This document shows positions 34,346 to 51,261 of a stretch of 64,000 nucleotides of DNA, in pieces. The notes beneath the pieces were generated by a model. The model did no database searches and was not told the origin of the DNA. It saw only the letters and a program-made list of their open reading frames with translations. The number at the start of each line of letters is the position of its first letter. Positions within the stretch are counted from its first letter, which is position 1. Origin of the DNA: Dyella acidisoli (GTDB taxonomy: Bacteria; Pseudomonadota; Gammaproteobacteria; Xanthomonadales; Rhodanobacteraceae); contig NZ_BSOB01000005.1 in assembly GCF_030160295.1 (NCBI RefSeq), forward strand, positions 124,001 to 188,000. The letters are read 5' to 3'. Made by a program: the position numbers and the translations under genes.

Positions 34346-36003
34346 GTGACGCAATGAAGCACGTGCTGCCTCCGGATGAAGCCGCAATCATTCGGCCCCG
34401 TCGACGTATTTCCGTGATCTGGATCGTTCCAGTGCTGGCGGCCCTGATCGGTTTATCGATGCTGATTCATGCGTGGCTCTCGGTCGGACCGGAGATATCC
34501 ATCATGTTCCAAACGGCCGAGGGTCTTGAAGTAGACAAGACGCCGGTGAAGTACAAGGACGTGACGGTTGGCGTGGTTTCCGCCATTTCCTTGAGCGAGG
34601 ACGGCTCCTATGTTGTCGCGACCGTAACGTTGGACAAGCGTGCCGAGAACCTGGCCCGCGCCGATACACGCTTCTGGGTCGTTCGGCCACGCATTGGCTT
34701 ACAGGGCGTGTCGGGCATCGACACCTTGCTGTCTGGCGCATACATCGGTGTCGACAAGGGAGCGTCTCATCGGCCGGGCAACAGCTTTGTCGGGCTGGAA
34801 ACACCGCCTACCGTTATCAACGGTACGGCGGGGAAAAGCTTCGTGTTGCATGCCGATGATCTGGGTTCGCTGGATATTGGCTCGCCCGTCTACTACTGCC
34901 GTATCCGCGTCGGCCGTGTAGCTTCCTACCAGCTGGATGCCAATGGCCGCGGCGTTACCCTGGAGATATTCATCGATGCGCCGTATGACCGTTTCGTCAC
35001 CGCACAAACACGTTTTTGGCACGCGAGCGGCGTAGATATTTCGCTGGGCGCGGATGGTTTGAAATTGGATACGCAATCATTGACCACCGTGCTTGCCGGC
35101 GGCATTGCGTTCGCGAATCCAGCCAACGTCGCTGACGCGCCCGCGCCGGCCCGGCGCACGTTCGACCTGGCGAAGGATCAGCAAACGGCCATGGCGCCGC
35201 CCGATGGCCCTTCGCAGTATTTGCAGTTGCGTTTTGAGGATTCATTGCGTGGCCTGGTCATAGGTGCACCGGTGGAGTTCGCCGGACTGAATATCGGGCG
35301 GGTAGCATCGCTCGATCTTGGTTATGACGCGGCCAAGCACCGCTTTCCGACCGTAGTCGGCGTCGTCATTTATCCCAGCCGCCTTGGTGGCGTGCTGGCG
35401 CAACTACCGAAGTACAGCGGTAACCCCGACCAGCAGGCGGCTTCCTTTCTTGCCAATATGATCCAGCATGGTCTGCGCGCCCAGGCGCGCTCTGGCAACT
35501 TACTCACTGGGCAGCTCTACATCTCATTTGAATTCGTGCCCAATGCAACGAAAGTCGACTTCGACCCTGACGCGCGTCCGATCGCAGTACCCACCGTTCC
35601 CAGCAGCTTCGATCACATGCAGGAACAAGTGGCCAGCATCGTGAGCAAAATCGAGAAGATGCCACTGGATGCCATGGGCCAGCACCTTGATGCTTCGTTG
35701 GTGGACCTGGACAAGAGCCTCAAGCAAGTCAACGGACAGGTACTGCCTGCCACCACGCAAACCCTGCAGCAGGCGGACCGCACTTTTCAGACGGTACAAG
35801 GCGCGTTCAGTGATAACGCGCCGTTGCAGCAAAACCTTCAACAGACGTTGCTGGAAGTTCAACGTACCGCGCAATCGGTACGTACGCTCACCGACATGCT
35901 CGGCCGCCATCCCGATGCGTTGCTCAAGGGTTTGCCGAACGATCCACCGGCGGCAGATTTTCCCTCTTCCTCCCATGTCACCAACCCGGGACATTCGCCA
36001 TGA
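34342..36003 (+). CDS. pqiB: PqiB-like MCE protein (intermembrane lipid tunnel)
   Basis: 553 residues, close to the 546 of E. coli PqiB. One N-terminal membrane anchor (ISVIWIVPVLAALIGLSMLI) precedes three MCE domains: one starting at ISIMFQTAEGLEVDKTPVKY, a second around LGSLDIGSPVYYCRIRVGRV and a third around GLVIGAPVEFAGLNIGRV. The C-terminal part is a helical needle region (SFDHMQEQVASIVSKIEKMP and onward). It should form a hexameric tube across the periplasm for lipid transport and membrane integrity. Coupled by ATGA to both neighbours. Confidence 0.93.
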   Translation: MSDAMKHVLPPDEAAIIRPRRRISVIWIVPVLAALIGLSMLIHAWLSVGPEISIMFQTAEGLEVDKTPVKYKDVTVGVVSAISLSEDGSYVVATVTLDKRAENLARADTRFWVVRPRIGLQGVSGIDTLLSGAYIGVDKGASHRPGNSFVGLETPPTVINGTAGKSFVLHADDLGSLDIGSPVYYCRIRVGRVASYQLDANGRGVTLEIFIDAPYDRFVTAQTRFWHASGVDISLGADGLKLDTQSLTTVLAGGIAFANPANVADAPAPARRTFDLAKDQQTAMAPPDGPSQYLQLRFEDSLRGLVIGAPVEFAGLNIGRVASLDLGYDAAKHRFPTVVGVVIYPSRLGGVLAQLPKYSGNPDQQAASFLANMIQHGLRAQARSGNLLTGQLYISFEFVPNATKVDFDPDARPIAVPTVPSSFDHMQEQVASIVSKIEKMPLDAMGQHLDASLVDLDKSLKQVNGQVLPATTQTLQQADRTFQTVQGAFSDNAPLQQNLQQTLLEVQRTAQSVRTLTDMLGRHPDALLKGLPNDPPAADFPSSSHVTNPGHSP

Positions 36004-36599
36004 GCCTGATCTTCCGCCCGGTACCTATTGCGCTGGCTCTCGCGCTAACGGCGTGTGCTTCAACACCTGTCCACTACCACACCATGCTACCGCCCATGAC
36101 TCATGAGGCAGCCGCGCAACCGCCAGCCGCATTTCTGATCGATGTGTTGCCAGTCGGCATTCCCGCTCAACTCGACCAGTCACAGTTGGTGGTGCGACAA
36201 GGCCAGAGCGATATGGTTGTGCTCGATAGCGAGCGCTGGGTCAGTCCCTTTGGCGACGAGGTTCGCGGCGCACTCTCTTCCGAACTGAGCGCGTTGTTGA
36301 GCACGCAAGATGTGGCCGGATTGCCCATCCAGTCCGACAAGCCTGTTATGAAAGTGAAGGTTCAAATCCGCCGCCTTGATGCGTGGCCCGGCAAGCAAGT
36401 CCAACTAGTCGCGGATTGGGAATTGAGCTTTACAAATGACCCGGGAAGCGCGCGCGTGGTGCATACCGATCGCTTCGATGAAGCTACTGCTGACGGCTAT
36501 GTAAAGATGGTGAGCGCCTGTCAGCGTGCAGCTGTGGACTTGGCTGGACGCATTGCGTTGGATGCCAGGGAATTGGCGCGTTTGAGTCGTCCACATTAA
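36000..36599 (+). CDS. pqiC: PqiC-like outer-membrane lipoprotein
   Basis: 199 residues with a signal peptide and lipobox (LALTACA). The body matches the ABC-type transport auxiliary lipoprotein (PqiC, formerly DUF330) family: FLIDVLPVGIPAQLDQSQLVVR, then VLDSERWVSPFGDEV and the late QLVADWELSF strand. It should sit in the outer membrane and cap the PqiB tube. It starts inside the stop of pqiB (ATGA) and ends the operon. Confidence 0.9.
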   Translation: MSLIFRPVPIALALALTACASTPVHYHTMLPPMTHEAAAQPPAAFLIDVLPVGIPAQLDQSQLVVRQGQSDMVVLDSERWVSPFGDEVRGALSSELSALLSTQDVAGLPIQSDKPVMKVKVQIRRLDAWPGKQVQLVADWELSFTNDPGSARVVHTDRFDEATADGYVKMVSACQRAAVDLAGRIALDARELARLSRPH

Positions 36600-37098
36600 C
36601 CAATGCAGTTGTAAATTTAGTTTAAGTAGAAGTTGAGGCAGGCCCCGGTGGTCCCGATACCCCTCTCTTATCGCGATGACGATTAGATGGGGTTATCGAG
36701 GGTAGGGTGGGAGCCTGCTTTCGCCTATAGCTGCCATTGCCCGACGAGAAGAAGCAAGCTGAGGTTATCGATCCACAGAATTAGAGGCACACTCGTTTAC
36801 GAGCTTCTGATCGGGACACTTAAACCTGGCAAGCATGAAGGCTGCGGGATTTGCTCGCGCGGCCTATGATTCCTGATCGCAAATTAAAACGAATGGCCGA
36901 ATGCGTTGCGCATTCAACTTAGCCTGATGGATCCTGATTTCGTTACAACCGTTTTTTCGAGGAACCTTGGTCAACACGGCAGGTCTACTGGGCTGGCTGC
37001 AATACACGCGTGGATACTAGCGTTAGTGTTGTGTGAGCAATCAGCTTGAATGAGGCGGGGTTATCGAAGCGCCCGGACAGGATCGCGATCAAGTACAT
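36600..37098. other. intergenic region with extragenic repeat D
   Basis: Repeat copy D lies at 36679-36710. A weaker relative (GGGGTTATCGAAGCGCCCGG) is at 37057-37076. I see no gene and no clear terminator for the pqi operon. Confidence 0.5.
36679..36710 (+). repeat. extragenic repeat copy D, with KOPS
   Basis: ACGATTAGATGGGGTTATCG followed by AGGGTAGGGTGG; the octamer GGGTAGGG is at 36700-36707, oriented toward dif. Confidence 0.6.
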
Positions 37099-38067
37099 GT
37101 GCAGGACGCTGCGCGTTGCAAGATTGATACGTATAAAAATCAGGTGCCCTGGTCCGCGCGGTCCTTGAATCCGCGGGAGAGGGTGCTGGTGCTTGCCGTA
37201 GTGCTGGCTCTACACGCGCTTTTCGCCCTGGTGCTCTGGAACGCGATGCGACCGCCCTCGGAGGATAGAGAGCAGCCGCTAAGCGTGCGTTTGATCGACG
37301 TGGCAACACCAGCGAAACAGTTGCCGTCGCCCGCGGCACCCGTCATGGTGTCGCTGGCATCGGCGCCGCCTGTGAAACCCAAGCCAACTGAAAAGCCGCA
37401 TAAAGCGTTGATCGATGCGTCGGCTACAAAGCCCGCGCCAACGCCAGCCCCGCCTGGCAACAAACCTGACGCCAGCCAAATATTTTCCGCCAGCGGCTCG
37501 ATCCGGCTGCCGCCCGAACATATCCAGTACTCGGCCAATACACCATCCGAGGTAAAGACGAGCAAGCCGAAGGATGACCGTCAGATCATGGAGCATACCG
37601 ACTTCACGCATTACCGGCCGACTCGCTTCAACAAGTATTTCCCGCCGCCGAACGAAACCCTTGGTGGCGCGGTAGGCCGGCATATCGACGATGTGATCAA
37701 GGAAATAGCTAAGACCATGTGCGATCCGGAAAAGCGCAGCACGGCTACTAATCTGCTGTGCGGCGCGCCGCCGATACCTCCTGACCCGAAGGACACCGAC
37801 GAGCGCCTCAATCTGCCGCCATCGGCGTTGGCTGGAGGCGGCACGCCAGCCAAGCCGGTACCACTTCTAACCTGCATCGATGAGTACAGCCAAGGCAAGG
37901 GCCTGTCGCAAGGCTGCCCGGTCAATACGCCTGAAATTATTTTCCAGGCTCAAATGCGCGAGTGCGTCGATCTCTATCGGGCTGGCAAGCGCCTCAAGAG
38001 CTGGTGTCCAACCGATACTCCCAAGCGTGCTGCGGCGGAGGCGCCGGCAAGCGCCGATTTGCATTGA
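37099..38067 (+). CDS. proline-rich single-TM protein, TonB-like N-terminus, unknown function
   Basis: About 322 residues. A short basic N-terminus leads to one membrane segment (VLVLAVVLALHALFALVLWN) followed by SVRLID and a Pro/Lys/Ala-rich stretch (residues about 75-125), the layout of TonB-like proteins. The C-terminal half is not a TonB domain. Instead it has spaced Cys pairs in related units (MCDPEKR...LLCGAPP, CIDEYSQGKGLSQGCPVNTP, CVDLYRAGKRLKSWCPTDTP), suggesting a disulfide-stabilised periplasmic domain. The GTG start at 37099 is uncertain, since no ribosome-binding site is visible. It stands alone. Function is unknown. Confidence 0.68.
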   Translation: MQDAARCKIDTYKNQVPWSARSLNPRERVLVLAVVLALHALFALVLWNAMRPPSEDREQPLSVRLIDVATPAKQLPSPAAPVMVSLASAPPVKPKPTEKPHKALIDASATKPAPTPAPPGNKPDASQIFSASGSIRLPPEHIQYSANTPSEVKTSKPKDDRQIMEHTDFTHYRPTRFNKYFPPPNETLGGAVGRHIDDVIKEIAKTMCDPEKRSTATNLLCGAPPIPPDPKDTDERLNLPPSALAGGGTPAKPVPLLTCIDEYSQGKGLSQGCPVNTPEIIFQAQMRECVDLYRAGKRLKSWCPTDTPKRAAAEAPASADLH

Positions 38068-38683
38068 TAACCCGGCAGCTCGGAATGCAAGAGTGAAGCC
38101 CCGCTTCCGACCCGTAGCCAGCATCAGGGCAGGGCGATTAGCCTGTGTTATCGAGAGTACGGATGTAACTTCCAATGTTCATTTGGACTCTCCATCACTC
38201 TCATGGATTGGCCTGACGCGCTGCTTGCTGGTTTATGGGCGTAAATACCGCCATACGTGTTTCGACTACAAATAATTCAGTCGGTTTGCACGTTTTCTGT
38301 AGCCGCCAGCTAATAATGTGCTGATCAAGGGCGCCTGAAACAGCAAAAGTGGAGCTCACCGCCCTTACGCCGCAAATCTGAAGGCTGCGCCGTCGCGGAC
38401 TGTGTGGCCGGCGGTGGGGTGGCAAAGTGGGGCCGATGACAAGGATCGTTTGGTCAGCGCATCCGGCAAAGCGGAGCGAGCGGGCAAGTGCATGGCCTCC
38501 GGATCATTGTTGCCAAGCGACTAGTCCGGGTGCGGCATCTGGCGGGGCGATGGGTCATGTCGCCGGTGATCACCGTCCGAACGCCCTGAAATATCTGCCA
38601 GCCATCGTTGATGCTTGCACAAAGACAAATTCATATACGATATCCCTACTGTCTTCTGAATAGGGCTCGCAGGGGGAGCATCT
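38068..38683. other. intergenic region bordering the defence island
   Basis: Holds extragenic repeat copy E (38126-38162) and presumably the promoter of the SIR2-STAND gene. No gene is supported. Base composition becomes AT-richer to the right. Confidence 0.5.
38126..38162 (+). repeat. extragenic repeat copy E, with KOPS
   Basis: The octamer GGGCAGGG (38127-38134) directly precedes CGATTAGCCTGTGTTATCG and a diverged tail. The GGGCGATTAG part matches copy A. Oriented toward dif. Confidence 0.55.
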
Positions 38684-41600
38684 ATGCAAAGGAAGTTGCA
38701 GTTGTCGCCGCGCCTTATCCAGCAGATCAAGGAAGGTAAGGCAATCCTATTTCTCGGTGCCGGCGCTTCTTATGGGTGCAAGTCTGCCGATGGGGCAAAG
38801 AGTGCGCTGACCGGAAGGCAGCTGGGCGAGGCACTTTCCAATGAATTTCTTGGTGGGAGGCGCGCAGACGAAGCTCTTGCGCGAATTGCGGATTACGCTT
38901 CTACGGACGGCAGCGTCTTGGAAGTGCAGCATTTCATTCGAAATGCATTCGATCCTATCGACCCTCTGGATTTTCATCAGATTATCCCTCGTTTCAAATG
39001 GAAGGCCATTGTTACTACCAACTATGACCGTGTAGTTGAGAAGGCATATGAGAAGGTCAAGGAGCGCCTCCAGGATCCACTCGTCTTAGTTCGGGATGGA
39101 GATATCCGCACATACGAGGGGGAGGCGAACGCTGTCCCTATTTTTAAAATTCATGGCTGCATAAGCAACGCTTCGGACACGCAGCTTCCCTTGATCATTG
39201 CGAACGAACAGTATGCAAAGTACAGGGATGGGAGAGGAAGGCTAATTACTGCCTTTCAGGAGATGGCCAAGGACTATCCGGTCATCTTTTGCGGGTATGA
39301 GTTGGGCGATGCCCATATTGCTCAAATACTGTTTTCGTTGGAAGAGGGCTTCCAGGATCGCCCCTCCTACACAGCCATAAATCCCCGTTTCGACGACCAC
39401 GATCGTCGGTATTGGGCAAAGTACAAAATGGACGCGATTCCGGGAACGTTTGAGGAGTTCCTGAGGACCATCGACAAGGAGATTCTTCCCAACCAACGTG
39501 TTTTGGGTCAGCTTTTCACTGGGTCAATGGGATCGATTTCACGCTGGATAAAAGTTAATGCGACCCTTAGCCACAGCTTGCAGGCCGTCATGACCGGACG
39601 CTTACTACATGTCCATCATGACATGCCAGTTGAGAATCCAGATCCGTCGAAGTTCTATCGCGGAGACTCGACGTCCTGGGCCCCGATAAAACATGGCTTT
39701 GACTTCCCTCGACGGACTACCTATGGGTTAGTGACGGGACTATCTCGGCTCGATAAAGGTGCGGAATTCGTGCTCGTGAATGGCCATGCAGGTTCCGGAA
39801 AGAGCGTCGTGCTGAAGAGGGCTGCATGGGGGCTCGCAGGCGATTCGAATCCCGCACTCTGTTTTTACTGCGACACCTCGTTGAAGGGCGTAAAAGAGGT
39901 TCTTCAGGAGCTGCATGAGGTCTCTGGCGAGCGAATTTTCATTTTCGTGGACAATGCGCTCTTTGACATTGCTAGCCTCAACGAGTGCTACAGCTACGCG
40001 GAAAGAGCTGGACTTCCAGTGACGTTCATCTGCGGAGCGCGTACCAATGAGTGGAACACTGCGCATTCCGGCGCAAAATTTATCCAAGGTGAGGAGTACA
40101 CAGTTGGAGATTTGTCTCGTGATGAGGCTGGCATGCTGTGCGATCTATTGGAGAGACATGATTGCTTAGGTGAGCTTAAGCACGTCCCGTCTGCGGAAAG
40201 AATTGATCGATTGATGCAGCTGTATGAGCGTCAGCTTCTGGTTGCGCTTCATGAGGCGACAATGGGGTCTGATATTCGAAATATTCTTCGCGACGAATAT
40301 CGAAACATCACACCACCAGAAGCCCAGGTTTTGTATCTGGACATTTGTTCGCTCCATCGCCTGAACATCCCTGTTAGGGCGGGCTTAATATCGCGTATGA
40401 GTGGAACCAGCTTCCACCAATTTGAGGACCGCTTCTTTCGGCCGTTGGAGAAAGTAGTCACTTCCTATTCTGATTGGCGATCCAAGGACTTTGCGTATCG
40501 AACGCGGCACACCGAAATTGCTCAAATTGTATTTGAAGAGGCGTTTCCCGCCCCTTCCGATAAAGCGAACCAGATTGCGCGCGTAGTTCATTCACTCAAC
40601 ACGGACTACTCCAGTGACGACGACGCGGCAACCCTTCTTCTGAGGGGGCGCGTCATGGCGGATGAATTTGCCGATCGATCCCTGGCAGATCGAATCTTCG
40701 ATGCAGCCGAGCAATCCGGCGTTGATAGGTCTTTTCTTCTTCAGCAGCGGGCGATCTTCGAATTGAGGCATCCTGGCGGATCCGCTGCTCGTGCTCAAAA
40801 GTACATTGACGAGGCCATTGCTTCAGGTAAGAGATCCACTGGTGTTCTACATCACACTAAGGCAGTGGTCTTGCGTGAGCTTTCTCGCGAAGAGGGCATA
40901 GATCCTGTTCTCGCGGAGAGATATCGCGAGGCTGCGTTAAATGAGATTAAGGATCACGGACTTCTCAAGTCTTCTAAGCATGGAGTAGTCACATACTGCG
41001 AAGTCTTGCTGGATCAGATCACTTTACGTATGGACGCAGATTCGTCCAATGCGCAGAAACTGTCCGAGGAAGTGGCGATTCGAAAGATGGGGGAACTGGA
41101 AAGGAGCTTGGCAGAGGGTCTGCAAAGATGGCCTGACGACACCTATTTGATGGGGGTCAGAACTAGCCTCTATGGTGTTCTAAGTAAGCATCCGCAGGCT
41201 CTGGCTATGCTGCGTTCTGCTTTCCAGCGTGGACCGGGAAATGAGTTCGTTGCGTTGCGTCTTTCAAGACAACTAATTGATAGCGAGGAAACTGCGCAAG
41301 TCGAAGAGGGTAAGGCAGTGTTGCGTAAAGCTGTATCATTAAATCCTTCATCCAAGGCGCTCAGCTATCAACTTGCCAAAATTTTGATGCGAGAAGACGA
41401 AGTAGCAAATGCTGGGGAGATATCTAAGCTTTTGCGACGTAGCTTCACTGACGGGGACACTCACTTTGAAGCCCAATTCTGGAGTGCACGACATGAGTTC
41501 CTGTATGGCGACCGTCAGAAGGGTCTGACGATGTATGCTCAGTTCAAAGCAGTCCCCGTGCCCTATGTGGACTCAAGCGAGCGGCGAGGAATCGTCAAAG

Positions 41601-41815
41601 ATCGGAGGGGCTTAGCGACTGACTTTGAAGGAACAGTAAGAAGCCTAAAGGGTGACTTTGGCTTTGTCGATTGCTCTGCTCTTAGCGGATCGATCTTCCT
41701 ACACAGCACACAGCTAAGAGGCGGGGGATGGCAAGACTTGCGTCCCGGAGATAGGTTGAAGTTTAAGGTTGCTTTTTCTTTCCGAGGCCCGTGTTGCGTA
41801 GACGCCCATAAGTAG
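38684..41815 (+). CDS. SIR2-STAND NTPase with TPR region and C-terminal cold-shock-like domain
   Basis: A 1043-residue protein with the build of an Avs-like antiphage sensor. Residues about 20-270 are SIR2-like: ILFLGAGASYG (21-31), TTNYDR (Asn113), IHG (His157) and VIFCGYELGD, typical of NAD-cleaving effectors. Around residues 367-375 GHAGSGKSV is a Walker A, and IFIFVDNAL is Walker B, as in STAND ATPases. A long helical, TPR-like region follows (for example LRKAVSLNPSSKALSYQLAKIL). The last 65 residues (GTVRSLKGDFGFVDCSALSG, then IFLHSTQL and LRPGDRLKFKV) resemble a cold-shock/OB nucleic-acid-binding domain. AGGGGGAG precedes the ATG. It should sense a phage product and deplete NAD. The locus is AT-richer than the core genome, as expected for transferred DNA. 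Confidence 0.85.
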   Translation: MQRKLQLSPRLIQQIKEGKAILFLGAGASYGCKSADGAKSALTGRQLGEALSNEFLGGRRADEALARIADYASTDGSVLEVQHFIRNAFDPIDPLDFHQIIPRFKWKAIVTTNYDRVVEKAYEKVKERLQDPLVLVRDGDIRTYEGEANAVPIFKIHGCISNASDTQLPLIIANEQYAKYRDGRGRLITAFQEMAKDYPVIFCGYELGDAHIAQILFSLEEGFQDRPSYTAINPRFDDHDRRYWAKYKMDAIPGTFEEFLRTIDKEILPNQRVLGQLFTGSMGSISRWIKVNATLSHSLQAVMTGRLLHVHHDMPVENPDPSKFYRGDSTSWAPIKHGFDFPRRTTYGLVTGLSRLDKGAEFVLVNGHAGSGKSVVLKRAAWGLAGDSNPALCFYCDTSLKGVKEVLQELHEVSGERIFIFVDNALFDIASLNECYSYAERAGLPVTFICGARTNEWNTAHSGAKFIQGEEYTVGDLSRDEAGMLCDLLERHDCLGELKHVPSAERIDRLMQLYERQLLVALHEATMGSDIRNILRDEYRNITPPEAQVLYLDICSLHRLNIPVRAGLISRMSGTSFHQFEDRFFRPLEKVVTSYSDWRSKDFAYRTRHTEIAQIVFEEAFPAPSDKANQIARVVHSLNTDYSSDDDAATLLLRGRVMADEFADRSLADRIFDAAEQSGVDRSFLLQQRAIFELRHPGGSAARAQKYIDEAIASGKRSTGVLHHTKAVVLRELSREEGIDPVLAERYREAALNEIKDHGLLKSSKHGVVTYCEVLLDQITLRMDADSSNAQKLSEEVAIRKMGELERSLAEGLQRWPDDTYLMGVRTSLYGVLSKHPQALAMLRSAFQRGPGNEFVALRLSRQLIDSEETAQVEEGKAVLRKAVSLNPSSKALSYQLAKILMREDEVANAGEISKLLRRSFTDGDTHFEAQFWSARHEFLYGDRQKGLTMYAQFKAVPVPYVDSSERRGIVKDRRGLATDFEGTVRSLKGDFGFVDCSALSGSIFLHSTQLRGGGWQDLRPGDRLKFKVAFSFRGPCCVDAHK

Positions 41816-41919: not shown

Positions 41920-42702
41920 ATGACTACAAAGTTCGACGCCTTGAGAGACGAAGTGTCAGCACTTGCTGCTCAAGGTGAGCTCCTCTATTTTTCTCTGCGC
42001 AAAGCCTGCAAAAATCTCTCAAAAGCTGAGCTCGCCATTATCGAGGAGCGGAAGTTTCAACTTCCCAAGTTTGGAGATAAGTACGAAATTTGGTACTCGG
42101 AAGCTCTTCAGTTAGTAAAACAATTGCTCCCCGATCGTTTCGGTGACTTCACTCGACAATACAAAGACGAAAAACGAAAGGAAATCACATATGCGTCATA
42201 CGGAATTTCCGACGCATTGAATAGCCTCGTCGTCAAATTTGGCGTAAACATTGTAGCGGATGCGAACGCGTCTATCCCAAAAATGGGAGCCCAGGTAGCA
42301 ATTGTCAAATCCGCCGAAAAGCGATTTTCGAGTTCGCTATTTGACATTCGCGAAGTTGTCCAGGCTGATCTATTTGATTCCGAACTGGACGCTGCACGCT
42401 CTCTGGTGAAAAACGGCTTCGTTCGCGCCTCAGGCGCCGTGGCAGGGGTCGTACTTGAAAAACATCTGGGCAATGTTTGTTCGACGCATCAGATTAAGAG
42501 CAGAAAGGGACATCCAACCATCGGTGACTTCAATCAACTGCTCAAAGACGCAAGCATCATTGACCTCGTCAAGTGGCGTTTCGTGCAACATCTCACTGAT
42601 ATTCGGAATCTCTGCGACCACGGCAAGCATCGCGAGCCAACTGACGAAGAGGTGCTGGAACTAATTGATGGCGTAGATAAGGTTATCAAAACCGTTTTCT
42701 GA
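41920..42702 (+). CDS. HEPN-like protein next to the SIR2-STAND gene
   Basis: 260 residues. The C-terminal third is a helical domain with VRASGAVAGVVLEKHLGNV, then WRFVQHLTDIRNLCDHGKH. RNLCDH is the R-x4-H motif of HEPN ribonucleases (Arg229, His234). The N-terminal 150 residues are helical and unfamiliar. It lies 104 nt after the SIR2-STAND gene on the same strand, in similarly AT-rich DNA, so it may be an accessory or independent defence toxin. No antitoxin such as an MNT nucleotidyltransferase is next to it. Its 3' end overlaps the end of the convergent XafT-like gene by 42 nt. Confidence 0.65.
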   Translation: MTTKFDALRDEVSALAAQGELLYFSLRKACKNLSKAELAIIEERKFQLPKFGDKYEIWYSEALQLVKQLLPDRFGDFTRQYKDEKRKEITYASYGISDALNSLVVKFGVNIVADANASIPKMGAQVAIVKSAEKRFSSSLFDIREVVQADLFDSELDAARSLVKNGFVRASGAVAGVVLEKHLGNVCSTHQIKSRKGHPTIGDFNQLLKDASIIDLVKWRFVQHLTDIRNLCDHGKHREPTDEEVLELIDGVDKVIKTVF

Positions 42703-43128
42703 CACACGATAGCTTCTTCGCATGAGGCTCTCCGCGGTGTGGAAACTAAAGATTTTCTCGATAAATTGATCGAATTGCTTTTGTTTCCACAAGGCGCGCA
42801 TATGGCGGTGGCGGCGCACGGCAAAAGAGCAGCAGGGCGGTTCGCCAGGCGCGCGGCGATCATAGTCATCACGCCAGAAACGGGCCTGTTCACTGGTCAG
42901 CCACCAGCGCCGCATGGACGCCTCCGAATACCGCTTGCCATCCGGGGACCACAAGCCATTACGGTTAAGGGTCCAGCCGTTCCAACTGTCATGCAGCGCG
43001 CCAAGGTCACCAAGCCGTACCAGCCGTACCGCCGACCAAGGGACCCGACAACGGCCAGCGTCCCAGTGTCGAATCGTGCGCACGCTGAGCCGCAGCTCGC
43101 GGAATCCGTCAGGAGACAGGAGCCACAT
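42661..43128 (-). CDS. XafT-like / DUF3653 phage regulatory protein (Xer recombination activation factor family)
   Basis: 155 residues. The N-terminal half (FRELRLSVRTIRHWDAGRC, then RVPWSAVRLVRLGDLGALH and LWSPDGKRY...MRRWWLT) is the hallmark of DUF3653 proteins. These include the VC1465/XafT family that activates XerCD recombination for phages integrating at dif, and related genes of Xanthomonas filamentous phages. The dif site is 100 bp upstream of its start. The last 14 residues are read from DNA antisense to the end of the HEPN gene, so the original C-terminus was probably lost when the flanking DNA changed. It is therefore a phage remnant that may or may not be active. Confidence 0.72.
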   Translation of the reverse strand: MWLLSPDGFRELRLSVRTIRHWDAGRCRVPWSAVRLVRLGDLGALHDSWNGWTLNRNGLWSPDGKRYSEASMRRWWLTSEQARFWRDDYDRRAPGEPPCCSFAVRRHRHMRALWKQKQFDQFIEKIFSFHTAESLMRRSYRVSENGFDNLIYAIN

Positions 43129-43228: not shown

Positions 43229-43256
43229 ATTGCGCATAATGTATATTATGTCAAAT
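43229..43256 (+). other. dif: dif site (XerCD recombination site, chromosome dimer resolution)
   Basis: A 28-bp match to E. coli dif at 25 positions. The XerC half is ATTGCGCATAA (two differences at its outer end), the 6-bp centre TGTATA is identical, and the XerD half is TTATGTCAAAT (one difference). XerC and XerD should recombine here to resolve chromosome dimers at the division septum under FtsK control. A XafT-like phage gene lies next to it, as expected since filamentous phages integrate at dif. GGGNAGGG octamers switch strand across this site, which supports it being the chromosomal dif rather than only a phage attachment copy. No second dif copy was seen in the window. Confidence 0.88.
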
Positions 43257-43734: not shown

Positions 43735-43742
43735 CCCTGCCC
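43735..43742 (-). other. KOPS octamer on the - strand
   Basis: CCCTGCCC on the + strand is GGGCAGGG on the - strand. It is right of dif and therefore points back toward it. It also overlaps the ribosome-binding region of the small membrane protein. Confidence 0.45.
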
Positions 43743-43876
43743 CTGCACTCATCGACGAGTAGAAGATACCCAAAAGCAGGTTTGGCGAGGAACTGAAAAC
43801 GCACGATTCCCACGCCGCCGGATAAGGCGGCGTGGGCTGATTACAAAACGCGGCCTGAGGCCTAGCTCTCGTGTCG

Positions 43877-44482
43877 CTACGGCGTCCGCACGAATCCGTT
43901 CACGACGCCCGCGGAGTTCACATAGAGCCCCACGATGACACCGCCAGGGTTGATCCCTGTCGCCTCAGTGAAACTCGCTCCGGGGTAGTCGAACGACGTG
44001 TAAGCACCATTAAACAGAAAACCGTGGCTGACGCCCGAAGCATCGGTGTAAACCCCCACGACGTCACCCGGCGCGTTGGCACCGCCAGCAAACGTAAACG
44101 CGGCGCCTGGATAGTTGATGGTGGCATACGATCCGTGGAACAGCAGATACCCTTGGCACTGTGTGGAACATGTCGTTCCACTTAGGTGTGTGTAAGCACC
44201 AACGACTGCGCCAGATGGGATCACCACACTGCTGGTACTACTGGCCGCACCCGGTGGGTCGAAGGTCGCTGAGAAGACGCCCTGCTTGGACACCAGGAAA
44301 CTGTGGGTAACGTTGGTGTTGCCGGTGACGCCGCAGGCAGCGTCGGAACAGGTAGCGCCTGACAATTCACCTGAAGGGTTAGAGGGATGGCCGACATTTG
44401 CCCGAAAACGCTCACTTCGGCGATAACACATTGATATATAAATAAGATCGTCGCCTCGTTGGGTGCCGGCCACCGGCACCAT
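43877..44482 (-). pseudogene. fragment of an exported HAF-like repeat protein
   Basis: A frame of about 200 codons made of repeated units such as GFLFNGAYTSFDYPGASFTE and GGVIVGLYVNSAGVVNGF, typical of HAF-repeat extracellular proteins. There is no signal peptide. The first 35 residues (up to RANVGHPSN) do not resemble the family, so the gene appears truncated at its 5' end, just after the KfrA-like gene. It is probably non-functional. Confidence 0.55.
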
Positions 44483-44486
44483 GCAG

Positions 44487-45509
44487 TTATGTCGATGGTG
44501 ACAACGTTGCGACGGCCGAGGGCTGCAACTTGGAAAGGATCTCCTCTAACGTGCTGAGCCGCGTTTGGATTTTCGAGCTATGGTCTTCAGCGCGTTGCCG
44601 CTTTACACACTCCAAATCTAGTGATCGCGTGGCGGCTTCCAAGTCAGCCCGCAGGCATTCGAGAGTTTTTACATCCTGGCCCCACCTCGTGCGCAAATCG
44701 GCCAATTCTGTTACGACGGGCTTCAATGTAGCCACTTCCTCTTGCGCGAGGCGCGTCGCGCTCCGTGCCTGCTGCAAATCCTTGTCCAGTCGTGCGACGT
44801 GTTCGGTCAAACGGCCGTTATCGCGATTGAGTTGCATCAGATCGTGGTTCTTGGCTGTGAGGGTTTCATTGGCTTGGCGCAATGCGACCTGTAACTCTTG
44901 GACCTGGTGTTCATGCCGACGCTGCTCTTGATCGCGCTGTTCCTTGATAGAAGTTCGGTAATGCTCCAGCGCGTCGCGGGCATGTTGATGCTTCTCCTCT
45001 AGTGATTGCGCATGTGCTTCGTGCTCAGCCAAACGGGTCTGCAATCCTGTAATGCGCTCTTCGAGTTGTCGAAGGTGCGCCGTGGTGTCACTCAGCGCTT
45101 GACGAGTTGTATCGTGCTGGGCGCGTTCCTCGTGGAGCGCGGTTTCCGTACGCTGTAGCTGCGTAAGGGCATCCGCCGATTCGCGCCGAGCTTGCTCCAG
45201 AAGGCTCCCCTGCTCTCTCCGTTGTGCCTCAAAACGAAGTGTGGCCTCCGCTACCTTGGCATCTGCTTCCTCATTGAGCCGCCCGGCCAAGCGACCGACC
45301 AGATCAGCTAACACGCCGCTGATCGGGAATTTGTCGCCTCCGGCCGTATCTTCTGCCTCCAGCTCCTTCAGGTAGCGGTGAATCGTCGTTTTCGATCCGG
45401 TATTTCCCAGCGCCACACGTACTGCGTCAACAGACGGGCGCTTTCCTTGCGCAATCAACGTATTACGCGCCTTTTCGATATCGGTTCTGTATATCCCGCC
45501 GCGAGCCAT
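44487..45509 (-). CDS. KfrA-like DNA-binding coiled-coil protein 1
   Basis: About 340 residues. The N-terminal 60 residues (IEKARNTLIAQGKRPSVDAV, ALGNTGSKTTIHRYLKEL) match the KfrA_N DNA-binding helix-turn-helix. The rest, residues about 90-330, is a continuous coiled coil. KfrA proteins of plasmids bind operators in their own promoter and build filamentous scaffolds near partition loci. I start it at the ATG at 45509. Just upstream lie inverted repeats (45530-45563) that fit an autoregulatory operator. It is a distant paralogue of the protein at 50357-51235. On a chromosome next to dif and a recombinase, a role in mobile-element maintenance is plausible but unproven. Confidence 0.82.
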   Translation of the reverse strand: MARGGIYRTDIEKARNTLIAQGKRPSVDAVRVALGNTGSKTTIHRYLKELEAEDTAGGDKFPISGVLADLVGRLAGRLNEEADAKVAEATLRFEAQRREQGSLLEQARRESADALTQLQRTETALHEERAQHDTTRQALSDTTAHLRQLEERITGLQTRLAEHEAHAQSLEEKHQHARDALEHYRTSIKEQRDQEQRRHEHQVQELQVALRQANETLTAKNHDLMQLNRDNGRLTEHVARLDKDLQQARSATRLAQEEVATLKPVVTELADLRTRWGQDVKTLECLRADLEAATRSLDLECVKRQRAEDHSSKIQTRLSTLEEILSKLQPSAVATLSPST

Positions 45510-45529
45510 GGTGGTGCCCTGTTTATTTC

Positions 45530-45563
45530 GTAATGTATTACATACCATGCAATTACGTAATAC
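45530..45563. promoter_or_regulatory. candidate KfrA operator
   Basis: GTATTAC (45535-45541) and GTAATAC (45557-45563) form a 7-bp inverted repeat, and ATTACGTAAT (45552-45561) is a perfect palindrome. The site lies 21-54 bp upstream of the KfrA-like start, where KfrA proteins bind their own promoter. Confidence 0.5.
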
Positions 45564-45592
45564 TTCAAGCAATCATAACCAGGGGTCGGACC

Positions 45593-45633
45593 AAAAAACT
45601 AACACCGGATAATTGGACGTTATCCGGTGTTAG
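45593..45633 (-). terminator. intrinsic terminator
   Basis: Read on the - strand, perfect 14-bp arms CTAACACCGGATAA and TTATCCGGTGTTAG around a 7-nt loop are followed at once by six T. It isolates the KfrA-like gene from transcription coming from the regulator gene at 46416-48770. Confidence 0.85.
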
Positions 45634-45790
45634 CTCATTCTCGGGCGGGTTATACGGCGGGACGTGGTACACATCGCTGCTGGCTTACCGAGTCCATCCT
45701 CGGATCCGGATCGGCCAGTGAAATGGAAAAGCTGATTCGATGCATGAACACAACGGGCGTCTGCCGCGCTGAATGAGGGGTTTGGGGAGC

Positions 45791-45850
45791 AATGGAACGT
45801 AAAACAGTTACAAGGCCGATTCGACCTTCTTAATCAAGAAGATACAGGAT
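45791..45850 (+). repeat. 60-bp direct repeat, copy 1
   Basis: Begins AATGGAACGTAAAACAGTTA and contains a hairpin AAGGCCGA/T/TCGACCTT, then TTAATCAAGAAGATACAGG. About 50 of 60 positions match copy 2. Confidence 0.7.
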
Positions 45851-45990
45851 TGACGGTTCTGCTTTTTATGACACAGCTTTCGGGTTTGGTTGGTCAGAAC
45901 CAGGCTTGGTAGCCCCCATCGTCGCCTAATCGGCAGACGGCAGCGTCGGAAACACTAAGCATCAAGCGCAAGTTTTCGAATGAAGGTGCC

Positions 45991-46050
45991 AATGGAACGT
46001 AAAACAGTTATAGGGCCGGTTCGCCCCTTTTAATCAATAAGATACAGAAC
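45991..46050 (+). repeat. 60-bp direct repeat, copy 2
   Basis: Begins with the same 20 bases as copy 1. The hairpin stem is AGGG...CCCT instead of AAGG...CCTT, so an A-T pair has become G-C on both sides, a compensatory change. Confidence 0.7.
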
Positions 46051-46125
46051 GATCCGCGCTGCATTCTGGGGACTCTTTCTCGGCTTAGTTTTCGTTCACT
46101 CGCCCCGCTTGATGGGCGACCGCAA

Positions 46126-46177
46126 GGCAAGACCGTAGCGACTCCATTTAGGGCAAGACCGTAGCGACTCCATTTAG
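46126..46177 (+). repeat. perfect 26-bp tandem duplication
   Basis: The unit GGCAAGACCGTAGCGACTCC plus ATTTAG occurs twice head to tail. Only two copies, no spacers, so not a CRISPR. Confidence 0.8.
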
Positions 46178-46415
46178 GGGTTGTCTTGATTTTCGTGCAA
46201 TTTGTAGCGACCTAAATTTTTACCCCACCTAGCGCCAATCTTGCGATTTGGGTTGGCGGTCTAGAGCCTCGGCTCCCCAGGAAATACCCTCCGCCATGAC
46301 TCACACCACTCCGTTTATGGGTTACCTAGGCTTCTGCCCTGTTAGGCCTTACAGAAGCATCGATTCTCCGACATGCGAAGCATTCGCTCTATAAAGTGGG
46401 TGTAATTCCTTCTCC

Positions 46416-48770
46416 TCAAAACCCCAGCACGGCGGATTCCGTCAAGGGCTGGCGATCACCAGCGAGCTCCTGGGCTTTGCTTCGAGACTTCTCCCACGCA
46501 GGCATCTGCCCTAAAGCTTTATACACACAGGCTTCCGTCCAGGCTGCGCGCCAGTCGAGTTGGCTCCAGTTCGACAACCGGCCACTCACGGCTACGGCCG
46601 GATCCACATTGCCGCTATTGAGCAAAGCCTGCGCATACGACTGCCCAACACTCACGATAAGTTCGGGTACACCGAGTCTGTCTGCCTGGGCCATGGCCAG
46701 TTTCAGCTGATCGAGCGCCTGTTGGTGCTGGTCTTGACTCCAGGCTTCTGCCGCTGTCGCGCGCACGAGGTAAAGCTTGATCCAATCATCTTGCTCCTTC
46801 AGTGGCGTTGCCCAGGTTTGCATGGCGGCGACGCTGTGCTTGAGCTCGTCGAGCTTGCCTGCACGCAACAGAATGTTGATGTGGATCAACCACGCTTCGG
46901 CGTAATGGCGCTTGTCTTCGTCCTGTGTCAACGCCGATCCTTCCATCGCCTTGGCTATCCACGACAAAGCCACTCGCGTATCGCCACGCTCCAACGCCAG
47001 TTTGGCCAGCAAGGCTTCTACCCATGCACGCTGGGCCGGTTTGTCATCGGTCTTGAATTGTGTGCTCAGTTGTTCGAGCACGGCGCTGGCTTCGGACGTG
47101 CGGCCGTTATCGGCCAGCGCGATGGCACGCAGGATGGTCATGTCTCTGCGCACATAGTCGTCGTAAAACTGCAGGTTTTTCTGCTCAAACGGCCAGTACC
47201 GATCGGTGACCGCCAGTTCTTCAGGAAACTGCAGCAGCATCTTGTGCGAGTAAGCCAGCCCTTGTAGCGGCAAGGAAAGCAGCTCGCGCAGACCTAAGCG
47301 CTGATACTGCTCATACGCCTGCTGCTGCAGCTGCAGGGCTTGAACAAATTGCCCGCGCTGCATGGCGATCATCGCCATCGCCACGTCCGCCTTCGATGGT
47401 CCTGCGCTATCGCCTGCCAGCGTGTAATTGACACGTGCCAGGCCTAGATCCCCGGCAGCCTCCTCCAGCTTGCCGTCGAAGAATTCAAGATGCGAGCGAT
47501 CCAGGTAAGCGGTAGCTAACGCTTCGGCATCCTTTTGTCCTTGCAGGAGACGAATCGCTTCGCTCAGAGCCGCCTCTCCCTGCGCAAACTGACGCTCCTG
47601 GTAGTAGCTGTACCACAGGCTGGTCAGCACCTTGGCACGCAACAGCGGTTTTTTATCGGCTGGCAATTGCTGGAGCAGATCGGTAAGTCCTTGCTTGCAG
47701 CGCGCGAGGTCGCCCTGCTTGCAATGGACATTGGCTTCCGCATAGACGAACTCCGGCATCCGGCGCACCGCGGGCGGCGCCTGGTCGATCAGCGTGCGCG
47801 CAAGATCCGAACGGTTCGCCAGATGGGCCGCATCGATCCGTAGCAAATATTCCTGCTGCGGATCGCCACCATGCCGCATGGAAACGGCACCGTAGCCGAG
47901 CTGCGCCAGTAGCATGTCACTTGCCGCATGCGCCGCGTCGAGCACACTGGTGGAGGAAGATTCTGCTTGCCAGTTCTGTCCATTGCGGACTTTCGCGTCC
48001 AGATGTACGTGCCAGGTAGTGCCGGTCAACGTCACTCGCGGACTGATGATCAGCGCGGAAGAGGCCAGACTGTCGCCATGCTCCTTATTCGCCTGCTTCA
48101 ACAGTCGGAGTACGTTTTGGCTGCTTTCGGTGGGTATCGCCGCAATGCGCAAGTGGTTTGAAATCAACTCCATCAAACCAAGCTGCAGCCATTTCCAATC
48201 TTCCGGGCCATTCACGGTGGCCGGCAGCACGATTGCCAGATTGTGATCGAAGCGCTGCACTGGCGAAGCCGGTTTGTTGCGCTGGTACTGCAAAACGCCA
48301 TACCCCGTAGCTGCGACGATCGTCAGCAGCAAGGCGATCAACAGCGAAGGGGGCCGCAGCCACTTAGGCGATGACGCGCTGTTGCGCGGGCCCAGTGCGA
48401 TCAACGGCTCAGTCACCTGCCCCTGCGCCGATACCGCCCCGGTCGTTTGAAATTCCACCACCGTATCCAGCGCCCAGCGATATCCCACGCGAGGAACGGT
48501 CTTGATGCAACGCTGCTCATGGCCGGCATCGCTCAACGAACGCCGTAGACGCACGATGGTTTGCGCCAGCAAATTGTCGCTGACGTCCGCGCGACCCCAC
48601 ACGGCGGCAATCAACTCGTCCTTTCCAACGGCGCGCGCCCGGTTTTCGATCAGATACACCAGGCAATCGAACGTGCTGGCGGGCAACACAATCGGCGAGC
48701 CATTCCGAGTCAACTCCCGTGCAAGAGGATCGAGACGAAAATCATCGAAGCAATAGACTAGATTCCCCAT
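46416..48770 (-). CDS. CadC-like membrane transcriptional regulator with TPR domain
   Basis: 784 residues. Residues 1-100 are an OmpR/PhoB-type winged helix (Trans_Reg_C): LIENRARAVGKDELIAAVWG, RLRRSLSDAGHE and TVPRVGYRW. One membrane segment (LLIALLLTIVAATGYGVLQY) lies near residue 145. The large periplasmic part starts with a TolB-like domain and continues into TPR-like helices to the C-terminus. This layout is common to one-component membrane regulators of the CadC/ToxR kind in this group of bacteria. No clear ribosome-binding site precedes the ATG at 48770. The target genes are unknown; no obvious target lies beside it. Confidence 0.85.
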   Translation of the reverse strand: MGNLVYCFDDFRLDPLARELTRNGSPIVLPASTFDCLVYLIENRARAVGKDELIAAVWGRADVSDNLLAQTIVRLRRSLSDAGHEQRCIKTVPRVGYRWALDTVVEFQTTGAVSAQGQVTEPLIALGPRNSASSPKWLRPPSLLIALLLTIVAATGYGVLQYQRNKPASPVQRFDHNLAIVLPATVNGPEDWKWLQLGLMELISNHLRIAAIPTESSQNVLRLLKQANKEHGDSLASSALIISPRVTLTGTTWHVHLDAKVRNGQNWQAESSSTSVLDAAHAASDMLLAQLGYGAVSMRHGGDPQQEYLLRIDAAHLANRSDLARTLIDQAPPAVRRMPEFVYAEANVHCKQGDLARCKQGLTDLLQQLPADKKPLLRAKVLTSLWYSYYQERQFAQGEAALSEAIRLLQGQKDAEALATAYLDRSHLEFFDGKLEEAAGDLGLARVNYTLAGDSAGPSKADVAMAMIAMQRGQFVQALQLQQQAYEQYQRLGLRELLSLPLQGLAYSHKMLLQFPEELAVTDRYWPFEQKNLQFYDDYVRRDMTILRAIALADNGRTSEASAVLEQLSTQFKTDDKPAQRAWVEALLAKLALERGDTRVALSWIAKAMEGSALTQDEDKRHYAEAWLIHINILLRAGKLDELKHSVAAMQTWATPLKEQDDWIKLYLVRATAAEAWSQDQHQQALDQLKLAMAQADRLGVPELIVSVGQSYAQALLNSGNVDPAVAVSGRLSNWSQLDWRAAWTEACVYKALGQMPAWEKSRSKAQELAGDRQPLTESAVLGF

Positions 48771-49118
48771 GAGAGAACTTTATCGTTCACGCTAAACCAC
48801 TTGCCGTTTCAAACAGCGAGACGCGCACGACCTAATAATGTTTCCCCTGCTGGTAGATAACGCAAGACAGATCATCGCGATCGCACTGCACTGTCAAAGC
48901 AGCTTGAATAAAATACCCGGATGGCTGGCGTCGCTCGGTCCGAATGTGCCGAAACGGACCCAAGTGCCATTGTCAGGCACGTAATAATTTTTCTCTTAAA
49001 CATCATGGATATCCTTTTGCCCCCCTACGCTCGGATGCGTTTCATGCGAAAAAGATAGCCTATGATGGATTGTGGATCGTAGCCTTCAATTCTACAAAGA
49101 TCGGAAAATATGTCGCCG
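48771..49118. other. intergenic region
   Basis: Upstream region of the CadC-like regulator; its promoter must lie here. I see no repeat, hairpin or gene. Confidence 0.45.
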
Positions 49119-49475
49119 CTAAGGCAACTTTTCTACAGTAGGATCCTCAAACGAGCGTACCGCGGCTGCGACATCCGCGATGACGGTTGGGCGCAATATT
49201 TTCCCTTGCGCCCTTTCCAGCCGTTGTTGGAGCACCTTCACCTGTTGACGCGCCTGATCAACCTGCTGGCGGGCACGATCCTCCACCGTGCGCACGTGAG
49301 CTTGCGTGGTGGTGTGCTCCGTGCGCAAGACGTCCCATTCGGCCTGTTGCCGCTCCATTTGCGCTTGCGCGCGATCACGCTGCTGCAGCAGGTCGATCCG
49401 CTGGGCTTCTAATTGGCTATCTATGCCCATCCCCCGATGAGCGTATTCTCCGAGCATCTCGGCCAATGTAGACAA
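49119..49475 (-). pseudogene. fragment of a KfrA-like coiled-coil gene
   Basis: The 118-codon frame includes QLEAQRIDLLQQRDRAQAQ and HVRTVEDRARQQVDQARQQV, which match the middle of the KfrA-like protein at 50357-51235 closely (QLEAQRTDLLQQRDRLQEQ; HIRTVEDRAHQQVDQARQEI). The DNA-binding N-terminus and the C-terminal end are missing. It marks a former second copy of that gene. Confidence 0.75.
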
Positions 49476-49489
49476 GGAATGGCGCGACT

Positions 49490-49768
49490 ATGTTCAAGAT
49501 AGAAGGGCTCGACGAACTGACTCGGCAATTGTCCGAGGCGGAACAAGCCATTGCATCTATTGATGGCGATTTGGGCGCCGTCAATTTCGATCCTCATGAC
49601 TCGGCGAGCATTGAACGGGCGATTCAGGCGGCTGAAACGCTAGTTGATGAGAAGCTCAAGGCCTATGCCGGCAATTCGCTAGTTGAATCATTGGTGGAAC
49701 AAATGAAGGAGCAACTTCGCCAGGGCATCATCGACAAGGCTGCGCAAGCAAGAACGGAACAAGGATAG
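49490..49768 (+). CDS. small acidic protein of unknown function
   Basis: 92 residues, mostly helical and acidic at the start (LDELTRQLSEAEQAIASIDG), with a basic-to-neutral C-terminus (VEQMKEQLRQGIIDKAA). AAGGAA lies 10 nt before the ATG. It resembles the small hypothetical proteins often found in integrative elements, but I recognise no named family. Confidence 0.55.
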   Translation: MFKIEGLDELTRQLSEAEQAIASIDGDLGAVNFDPHDSASIERAIQAAETLVDEKLKAYAGNSLVESLVEQMKEQLRQGIIDKAAQARTEQG

Positions 49769-49873
49769 GAGGTGTGCCGGAGCCTTTTGAATCGTTATTG
49801 ATCTTGTGCCGTATTTGAACATCACGACTTGAGCAATGTTTGTGGATCGTCGAGGGCGACTTCGATAAGGTCG

Positions 49874-50224
49874 CTAGCCCCCGATGATATACATGTCCGT
49901 TGCCGCAACAAGGCTGGACAAGGCGATGATCCCCAATGAACAAACGATCAACCATCCCTGCGTTTTAGTGGGTTCGATGTTTTTGTTCAAGAGTAGCGAT
50001 ACGAGCCTCCAAGAGCCCACTATCGTTATCAATAGCAAGGACGCTGAAAAAGCGAACGCACACGCGGTGAGCAGCCAAGCCTTCGGCCCGTGAAGATAGC
50101 CCTCAACCGCGGGGCTACGTGATATGCGACCTATATCTATTTCACCGCGAAGTGCGCCATGTAAGCAGTAAACGAACGGTAACGCGAATAGTCCACTCAT
50201 ACCCCAGAGGGTGGCCACCCCCAT
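49874..50224 (-). CDS. small three-TM membrane protein of unknown function
   Basis: 116 residues with three hydrophobic segments (TLWGMSGLFALPFVYCLHG, WLLTACAFAFSASLLLITIV, GWLIVCSLGIIALSSLVAAT). I recognise no family. It lies between the KfrA fragment and the intact KfrA-like gene and is probably cargo of the mobile region. Confidence 0.5.
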   Translation of the reverse strand: MGVATLWGMSGLFALPFVYCLHGALRGEIDIGRISRSPAVEGYLHGPKAWLLTACAFAFSASLLLITIVGSWRLVSLLLNKNIEPTKTQGWLIVCSLGIIALSSLVAATDMYIIGG

Positions 50225-50356
50225 GATGCTTTACCTCTTATCCATTTTCTTTTCTTCCCCTTGGCGCAAAGTGGAAATGCCAGCCCAACTGGGCGACTTA
50301 GACAGCTGATTAGAATACCTGGATAGGCACCACCCATTTCCGATGGGTCCACGTAA

Positions 50357-51235
50357 CTATTGTGGGGTCTTTTTTGCTCGATTTCGCGGCTTGCTTTTGC
50401 CCACTGGCGACGCTTTGCGTGATTGACGTTTAGATGGTGACACCTGGCTACGCCATTGACTGAGCGTGGCTTCCAAGGCCGCCACCCGGCCGGCCTGATG
50501 TGCGGCCGCCTGTTCGGCCGTGCGCATGACATTTCGTATTTCGTCCTGCTGTGTTGAGAGTTGTGTCACGAGCTTATGGTGGTCGCGTTGCTCTCGTTCC
50601 AGCCGATGCTGCAGCAACTTAATTTCCTGGCGGGCCTGGTCAACCTGCTGGTGCGCACGGTCTTCCACGGTGCGGATGTGCTCCTGTGCAGCACTGTGTT
50701 TGGCCTGCAGGCCGTCCATCTCAACCCGGTGCCGTTCGAGCTGCTCTTGCAATCGATCGCGTTGCTGCAAAAGGTCGGTTCGTTGAGCTTCCAACTGGTC
50801 GACTAGTGCTTGACGTTCATGCAATTGTGCATCGGCTTGCGTGAGTTTCACGGAGCTCTCGGCCACATTCGCCTGGGCTTCGGTGAGGGCAATCTCCCAC
50901 AGCTTGCGCTCTTGGGTGAGCGTCGTTTGCGCGGCAAAGAGGGCATTCCGGTCTTCCGTCAGCGCCGCGCGGGCCGTGACCTCGGCATGTTCGAGCGCTA
51001 ACCGCCATGTCTCCGCATACGCCTGCGCCACCGCACCCGGCAACTCCGGCAGCAGTGCGTGACCTTTTAGACGCTGTGCGAGGTGCTCCCACCATTGCTC
51101 GAGTAATTGGCCGACGCGCGCCGGACTGCCACGGCCCAATTGCACACGTACACGTTCCACCGTGGGGCGTTCGCCACGGGCCAGCACCGCATCCGCGGCT
51201 TGGAAAACGTCCGTTTCAGGTACCCCGATGGCCAT
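50357..51235 (-). CDS. KfrA-like DNA-binding coiled-coil protein 2
   Basis: 292 residues. The N-terminus (VFQAADAVLARGERPTVERV, VQLGRGSPARVGQLLEQWWE) is a KfrA_N-type helix-turn-helix. Residues about 85-265 form a coiled coil, and the end is a basic tail (KRQSRKASPVGKSKPRNRAK) likely to contact DNA. It is divergent from the tyrosine recombinase gene at 51323, with an 87-bp gap that holds an inverted repeat. This tight pairing suggests joint control, and possibly that the KfrA-like protein works with the recombinase. Confidence 0.82.
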   Translation of the reverse strand: MAIGVPETDVFQAADAVLARGERPTVERVRVQLGRGSPARVGQLLEQWWEHLAQRLKGHALLPELPGAVAQAYAETWRLALEHAEVTARAALTEDRNALFAAQTTLTQERKLWEIALTEAQANVAESSVKLTQADAQLHERQALVDQLEAQRTDLLQQRDRLQEQLERHRVEMDGLQAKHSAAQEHIRTVEDRAHQQVDQARQEIKLLQHRLEREQRDHHKLVTQLSTQQDEIRNVMRTAEQAAAHQAGRVAALEATLSQWRSQVSPSKRQSRKASPVGKSKPRNRAKKTPQ

Positions 51236-51236
51236 G

Positions 51237-51244: not shown

Positions 51245-51261
51245 CTTTGGTGATTAGGTAT

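Follow-up and report, generated by a model that had tools for sequence, protein, structure and literature searches.

A dif site at the replication terminus of Dyella acidisoli and a nearby Cre-like kfrA-int module that is probably a terminus-linked resolution-type system

The window, i.e. the whole stretch of 64,000 nucleotides of Dyella acidisoli DNA that was analysed, corresponds to positions 124001-188000 of contig C5 in a draft genome of 64 contigs and contains a dif site on the + strand at 43229-43256 (C5:167229). Left of this site lie a gene for a SIR2 + STAND NTPase protein, a probable anti-phage defence gene (38684..41815, + strand), and a degenerate gene with similarity to the VC1465/DUF3653 family of Xer recombination activation factors (XafT-like; 42661..43128, - strand). 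To the right, two KfrA_N coiled-coil genes are located on the - strand: kfrA2 (44487..45572), beside which no recombinase partner was recognised, and kfrA1 (50357..51235), which encodes a DNA-binding protein and is transcribed toward dif. A fragment of a further kfrA1-type gene is found at 49206..49439 (- strand). Divergent from kfrA1 and transcribed away from dif, int (51287..52444, + strand; likelier start ATG 51323) encodes a Cre-like tyrosine recombinase, and a candidate recombination core site of the form GATAA-N7-TTATC (51254..51286) lies between the two genes. Together these elements comprise the kfrA-int module (50357-52444), about 8 kb right of dif. Downstream of int, an effector (phospholipase), a CD-NTase, an E1-E2 and a JAB gene follow one another in a single run (52676..57245, + strand), the arrangement of a type II CBASS.

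The dif site reads ATTGCGCATAATGTATATTATGTCAAAT. A recount confirmed the identity at 25 of 28 positions to E. coli dif that the initial annotation had claimed. By analogy with the arm boundaries of E. coli dif, the site would consist of a XerC-type arm (43229-43239), a central region of 6 bp (43240-43245) and a XerD-type arm (43246-43256), all on the + strand. No second site with at least 19 of 28 identical positions was found elsewhere in the 64-kb window, and a search of the 5,344,344 bp of the 64-contig draft genome with up to three mismatches to the dif pattern returned this one match, as expected if no better dif lies elsewhere. The 25/28 match together with the single copy in the genome rules out a chance match. 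Among the genomes of the genus, exactly one dif match was determined in 15 of 16 and none in the remaining one. Concerning the proteins acting on such a site, one protein encoded outside the window exceeded the cut-off of the XerD model, a second match to this model, the only Xer model applied, lay below the cut-off and was read as XerC-like, and a single protein of the genome exceeded the cut-off for FtsK_gamma.

All 12 KOPS octamers listed in the initial annotation were found at exactly the positions and on the strands given there. Nine GGGNAGGG octamers (1784, 4178, 14202, 17390, 21508, 27925, 28622, 36700 and 38127; 1784..38134) lie left of dif on the + strand and three (43735, 51237 and 61708; 43735..61715) right of it on the - strand (Fisher P 0.0045), with the octamer at 51237 being the conserved one inside the kfrA-int module, to which the initial annotation makes no reference. 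For the whole of C5 (354,567 bp, 49 octamers), 19 + and 5 - were counted left of dif compared to 0 + and 25 - on the right (Fisher P 2e-9). The best single strand switch on this contig was located between C5:162127 and 167735, an interval that contains dif, and its score was matched by 0 of 20,000 label shuffles. The cumulative GC skew, calculated for C5 alone, peaked at C5:166856, only 373 bp from dif, so that the predicted coincidence of both switches with dif was borne out on this contig. The expectation of a single octamer strand on each side held completely for the right side, while on the left side of C5 five octamers occur on the wrong strand, all of them more than 88 kb from dif. Genome-wide, KOPS (411 + 484) were about twice as common as a reversed-pattern control (223 + 224). 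In ten congeners, counted over 20 kb in each direction from the respective dif (in G003 over 15.6 kb to the left), 37 + and 4 - octamers were found on the left and 5 + and 33 - on the right (P 1e-12). Window, contig and congeners thus agree that KOPS aim at dif from both sides. Among the matches listed, paired GGGGAGGG octamers on opposite strands with starts 11-19 bp apart were also seen at C5:71212-71368 and on contigs C2-C4, representing a dispersed palindromic repeat with KOPS-like words; on C5 none of those listed lies closer than 95 kb to dif.

There is hardly any doubt that the chromosomal dif is located at 43229-43256, where KOPS and GC skew switch, and that it hence marks the replication terminus, which the window spans as originally proposed. 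Since the genome is a draft and Xer-using elements are described in PMC9765430 to carry dif mimics, the 28-bp site could in principle be a decoy or the attachment copy of an element, with the true dif elsewhere; as the sole match in the genome, located at the switch of both KOPS and skew, it makes this extremely improbable. With the KOPS of both replichores aiming at dif, FtsK would pump the last DNA there, and XerC and XerD would resolve chromosome dimers at the site, as in known systems. The dif itself is an ordinary representative of its kind and fixes the terminus of the genome.

Compared to the site itself, its surroundings are less conserved. DNA of ten congeners matched the flanks of dif, 20 kb on each side, in short and scattered stretches only, and a protein search with 31 open reading frames of the window showed few genes in common, with dif as the stable landmark. 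The XafT-like gene lies 100 bp left of dif. It lacks stretches of 15 and 3 residues that are retained in its relatives from D. tabacisoli and Fulvimonas, and scored 53 bits against NCBIfam NF040522, below the curated cut-off of 70 bits, while two relatives scored 69.9 and 69.2 bits, just under this cut-off. XafT-like matches within about 0.75 kb of dif were found in 7 of 79 genome stretches (L057, L067, L103, L117, L121, L125 and L126). In two of the relatives, dif and a half-dif enclose such a match, at a distance from one another of 2.4 kb in D. tabacisoli (L057) and of 1.7 kb in G121 (L161), and the relatives L057, L161 and L176 contain elements that end in dif on one side and in a second dif or half-dif on the other. 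Neither in the window (up to four mismatches, which gave chance-level words only) nor on C5 (up to three mismatches) was a second or half dif found, and therefore no intact dif-integrated element was recognised in the window. Given the position of the gene between dif and half-dif in relatives and the missing partner site in the window, the window copy is read as a remnant, likely left by an element that exploited Xer recombination at the dif site. Altogether, the flanks of dif look like a hot spot for mobile DNA. The earlier proposal of an island at a dif insertion hot spot thus gains support in kind, though no proof, from the few genes common to the congeners, the XafT-like remnant and the dif/half-dif elements of relatives.

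Further observations concern the DNA around dif in individual genomes. A protein with repeats, as judged by eye, is encoded in the window at 43877-44482 and shares 96% identity across 167 residues with a protein of G007, whose gene lies about 11.5 kb left of dif amid unrelated DNA. In G036 (L149) and G121 (L161) the DNA is common on both sides of dif, while dif itself is oppositely oriented, as if it had been inverted alone in place. In L200 a further open frame of a different kind, about 435 codons long, lies 2.2-0.9 kb left of dif; frames of this type occur 0.9-5 kb from dif in G035, G043, G005 and G075, are 83-87% identical between genera and overlap weak (about 29%) Int matches in G035, G043 and G005. 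G269 showed two dif matches (C1:8374 and 4622568), which are near one another only if the contig is circular, and a partial int begins 55 bp from one of them.

In the window, the core site of the kfrA-int module has a 7-bp spacer between 13-bp arms, of which 10 of 13 positions match. The only other copy of the core in the 354-kb contig is a perfect 13-7-13-bp inverted repeat of the same form at 45600..45632, which precedes the listed kfrA2 start by 27 bp; in L153, a similar additional core site, likewise perfect, was observed between kfrA and dif. All kfrA-int pairs of chromosomal or metagenomic origin (38 of 38) have a GATAA-N7-TTATC core no more than 300 bp from the start of int, mostly at position -55, while the related pairs carried by pQBR103 and by pWW0 lack it. 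Within the 75 bp that adjoin the core toward kfrA, an exact KOPS octamer was determined on the kfrA strand in 26 of these 38 pairs, and on the opposite strand in none (0/38). Two close Xanthomonas plasmid copies contain this octamer as well, and 12 of 38 modules lack the exact word, so that FtsK does not have to be the reason for its evolution. In 34 whole modules, 47 KOPS point toward dif and 3 away, as raw counts uncorrected for base composition, and 27 of the 47 lie outside the 160 bp before int. The Int residues R214/R216, K243, H317, R320, H343 and Y352, which we take to be the catalytic ones, were identical in all 34 copies aligned. Cre is the nearest solved protein both in sequence and in fold; due to the weak scores of the Int structure model (mean pLDDT 73, pTM 0.51, best TM about 0.5), only the fold class was used. 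Intact modules account for 32 of 43 copies, and some of the other 11 are cut by contig ends.

Defence genes accompany int at several places, and this raises the question whether Int acts as an island integrase of the common type, which places defence cargo close to dif. Besides the CBASS downstream of int in the window, a gene annotated as CBASS phospholipase adjoins the int of a kfrA-int pair on a Rhodanobacter plasmid, and Pycsar-type genes adjoin that of a Xanthomonas plasmid (plasmid loci L205, L206). Several defence families were also found downstream of int in relatives. PADLOC reported 185 families for 74 open reading frames downstream of int (74 of 96 used, one being excluded for overlap with int itself) compared to 57 for 66 control frames near module-free dif sites, but one protein matches many PADLOC models, and the enrichment is a hint rather than a count. 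On insertion, an integrase would split its own attachment site, while the core remained intact between kfrA and int in all 38 pairs, and the loci have no common far end. A role of Int as island integrase is therefore unlikely. For the same reason, the presumed core being uninterrupted between the two genes, an integrase that targets dif itself is disfavoured.

The position and direction of the module were compared in a larger set of genomes. Int was found in 10 of 16 genomes of the genus (E<=1e-20), in 39 of 117 of the family (1e-30) and, with the G049 protein as query, in 66 of 298 of the order (1e-60), resulting in 79 different genomes. The last of these numbers indicates that most species do without the module. 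In 60 of the 79 genomes Int and dif lie on one contig, including G237, G261 and G311, in which the dif core has two mismatches. In seven genomes they are on separate contigs (G001, G008, G032, G073, G101, G135 and G333), eleven showed no dif match (G023, G031, G046, G050, G054, G083, G095, G110, G122, G241 and G246), and in G091, where a half-dif lies beside kfrA, the distance would be about 49 kb only if the contig is circular. For the 60 genomes, the nearest Int-dif distance had a median of 2.35 kb, with 37 at or below 3.5 kb, 49 at or below 10 kb and all at or below 105 kb, kinship being ignored. On the 17 contigs of 1 Mb or more (lengths in part rounded) it was always 63 kb or less. Dyella nitratireducens and D. 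ginsengisoli are examples of the linkage, as is, for kfrA, Frateuria sp. Soil773. Fragments included, Int is directed away from dif at 62 of 64 places (binomial P 2e-16, likewise ignoring kinship), and both exceptions occur in G012, at 63 and 224 kb from dif. Modules were found on one side of dif in 33 cases and on the other in 27. At 16 loci without dif in the stretch, dif-like sites beside kfrA were only partial and restricted to G023, G050 and G095; in G031 one dif-like word lies inside the module. The DNA past the int stop showed no evident sharing among 27 loci and two plasmids, except between the congeners G050 and G110, while an open reading frame between kfrA and dif is common to some loci (G036, G102, G121 and G069) and the DNA on the far side of dif to G036, G121 and G051.

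Within two genus-spanning subclades, Int showed 85-94% amino-acid identity, while four-fold degenerate sites were only 45-67% identical. The high protein identity despite these diverged sites speaks for an old divergence under purifying selection. For kfrA, an identity of about 60-77% was determined in the comparisons made. The Int tree required 24 changes of genus label, compared to a minimum of 17 and a shuffled mean of 30.1. Since the tree follows the genera only partly, the module has moved between lineages. Close relatives also occur on plasmids, with the Xanthomonas plasmid copies being 86-88% identical to the G049 protein.

These data can be explained in more than one way. The module could be a hitch-hiker without a chromosomal role, which came with plasmids or with Xer-using elements that integrate at dif and whose remaining parts decayed; copies in the wrong direction would have been lost because their KOPS misdirect FtsK. 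The plasmid relatives, the Int tree, the elements between dif and half-dif in relatives and the broken module copies are consistent with this explanation, and we consider it a possibility to be taken seriously, although not one that we expect to be correct. It fits less well with the strong purifying selection across genera and with the DNA past int, which is unshared save in two congeners, though some loci share the frame between kfrA and dif. Xer integration is directional, while modules occur on both sides of dif in similar numbers. In addition, the best dif-like word in the plasmid and phage stretches L204-L207 had 8 mismatches. Sequence alone cannot separate a function at the terminus from hitch-hiking. 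Nonetheless, selection for a terminus function is favoured, since it fits the intact copies, the purifying selection, the direction and the unshared DNA past int.

A function at the terminus could also consist in its organisation, with KfrA as a MatP-like binding protein and Int as secondary. The KfrA_N coiled-coil genes near dif, among them kfrA2 with its own site, point in this direction. On the other hand, Int retains every residue presumed to be catalytic and is more conserved within the subclades than kfrA, and the core sites are not spread over the terminus, with only two in the 354-kb contig. Organisation of the terminus by KfrA is thus the weaker reading and appears improbable.

Taken as a whole, the locus is best explained by a chromosomal dif and, beside it, a self-contained Cre-like resolution module independent of Xer, an interpretation in which we have reasonable confidence. 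For its parts our confidence differs. The kfrA-int module probably represents a terminus-linked system of the resolution type, judging from its architecture and distribution. That it acts on chromosome dimers is conceivable, but is put forward here with reserve. More tentatively still, many Xanthomonadales might possess a second, Xer-independent Cre-like dimer resolution near dif that uses a KfrA helper and a 33-bp site of its own, was derived from plasmids or transposons and is held in place and direction by selection. In the resolution module favoured here, Int would recombine the inverted-repeat site between kfrA and int, and KfrA would bind near the core site and aid synapsis. The module would be kept beside dif because only there sister sites might be held at the septum long enough for resolution, and the polarity of KOPS would fix its direction.

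The module near dif matters more than the routine dif. If it resolves dimers, two unrelated resolution systems share one spot, and the question arises why the terminus is the sole workable place. If it does not, the module is a clean natural case of FtsK and KOPS polarity dictating the place and direction of a mobile gene pair. In a literature search covering the best matches, chiefly open-access, no paper was found that joins KfrA or TnpS/TnpT with dif, and the linkage of the module to dif, its direction and its core site appear undescribed within this literature. PMC6312765 contains dif, KfrA and XerC with one occurrence each, PMC10561277 treats KfrA as a plasmid protein and does not use the terms 'dif site' and 'tyrosine recombinase', and PMC2731167 reports that, of 161 dif-related sequences, 14.2% have insertion sequences or genes for a transposase or integrase nearby.

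Compared to the known dimer resolution by dif, XerCD and FtsK, the site in the window shares the 28-bp two-arm structure, the single copy and the position at the KOPS and GC-skew switch, with genes for XerD, a XerC-like protein and FtsK-gamma in other parts of the genome; it differs from E. coli dif at three positions and in nothing essential. With XafT of TLC-phi and other dif-integrating elements (IMEX), the locus has in common that a gene like the VC1465 family abuts dif, while here this gene is degenerate and a half-dif was not found. Compared to Cre/loxP of phage P1, whose site comprises 13-bp arms and an 8-bp spacer, the module showed the closest solved sequence and fold and the same arm length, but it has a spacer of 7 bp, a KfrA partner and a location at the chromosomal terminus.

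The closest similarity in architecture exists to TnpS/TnpT. The divergent pair at 29463-31613 of pWW0, presumably TnpS/TnpT, comprises a recombinase that is 25-28% identical to Int-type proteins and a helper that aligns with kfrA1 in the KfrA_N region only. As in TnpS/TnpT with the rst site between the genes, known from Tn4651 and TnXax1 and described in PMC7157771 and PMC4619425, the window contains a tyrosine recombinase, a divergent KfrA_N coiled-coil helper and an inverted repeat between them, which is imperfect in the window (10/13) and differs from the pWW0 word, the module core word being missing from the pWW0 pair. A further difference is the location near a chromosomal dif. No Tn3-family tnpA was detected among the 40 window frames scanned with Pfam, and no Tn3 transposase was present within 8 kb of the module among the genes listed in two Xanthomonas plasmid records. 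As no transposase was found with the module in the window or among these listed genes, membership in the Tn3 family is not established, and the module was rejected as a Tn3 transposon. Near the module on one plasmid, a Tn3 transposase was seen. Based on the matching architecture, it is assumed that the module would work like a resolution system. A genetic linkage of recombinase gene and site is also described for XerS and difSL in PMC2731167, and the module resembles XerS/difSL and XerH/difH in that a recombinase gene is linked to a terminus site. While those enzymes serve their hosts as dif recombinases, the genome analysed here has XerCD-type proteins and a dif in addition to the module, which has a site of its own.
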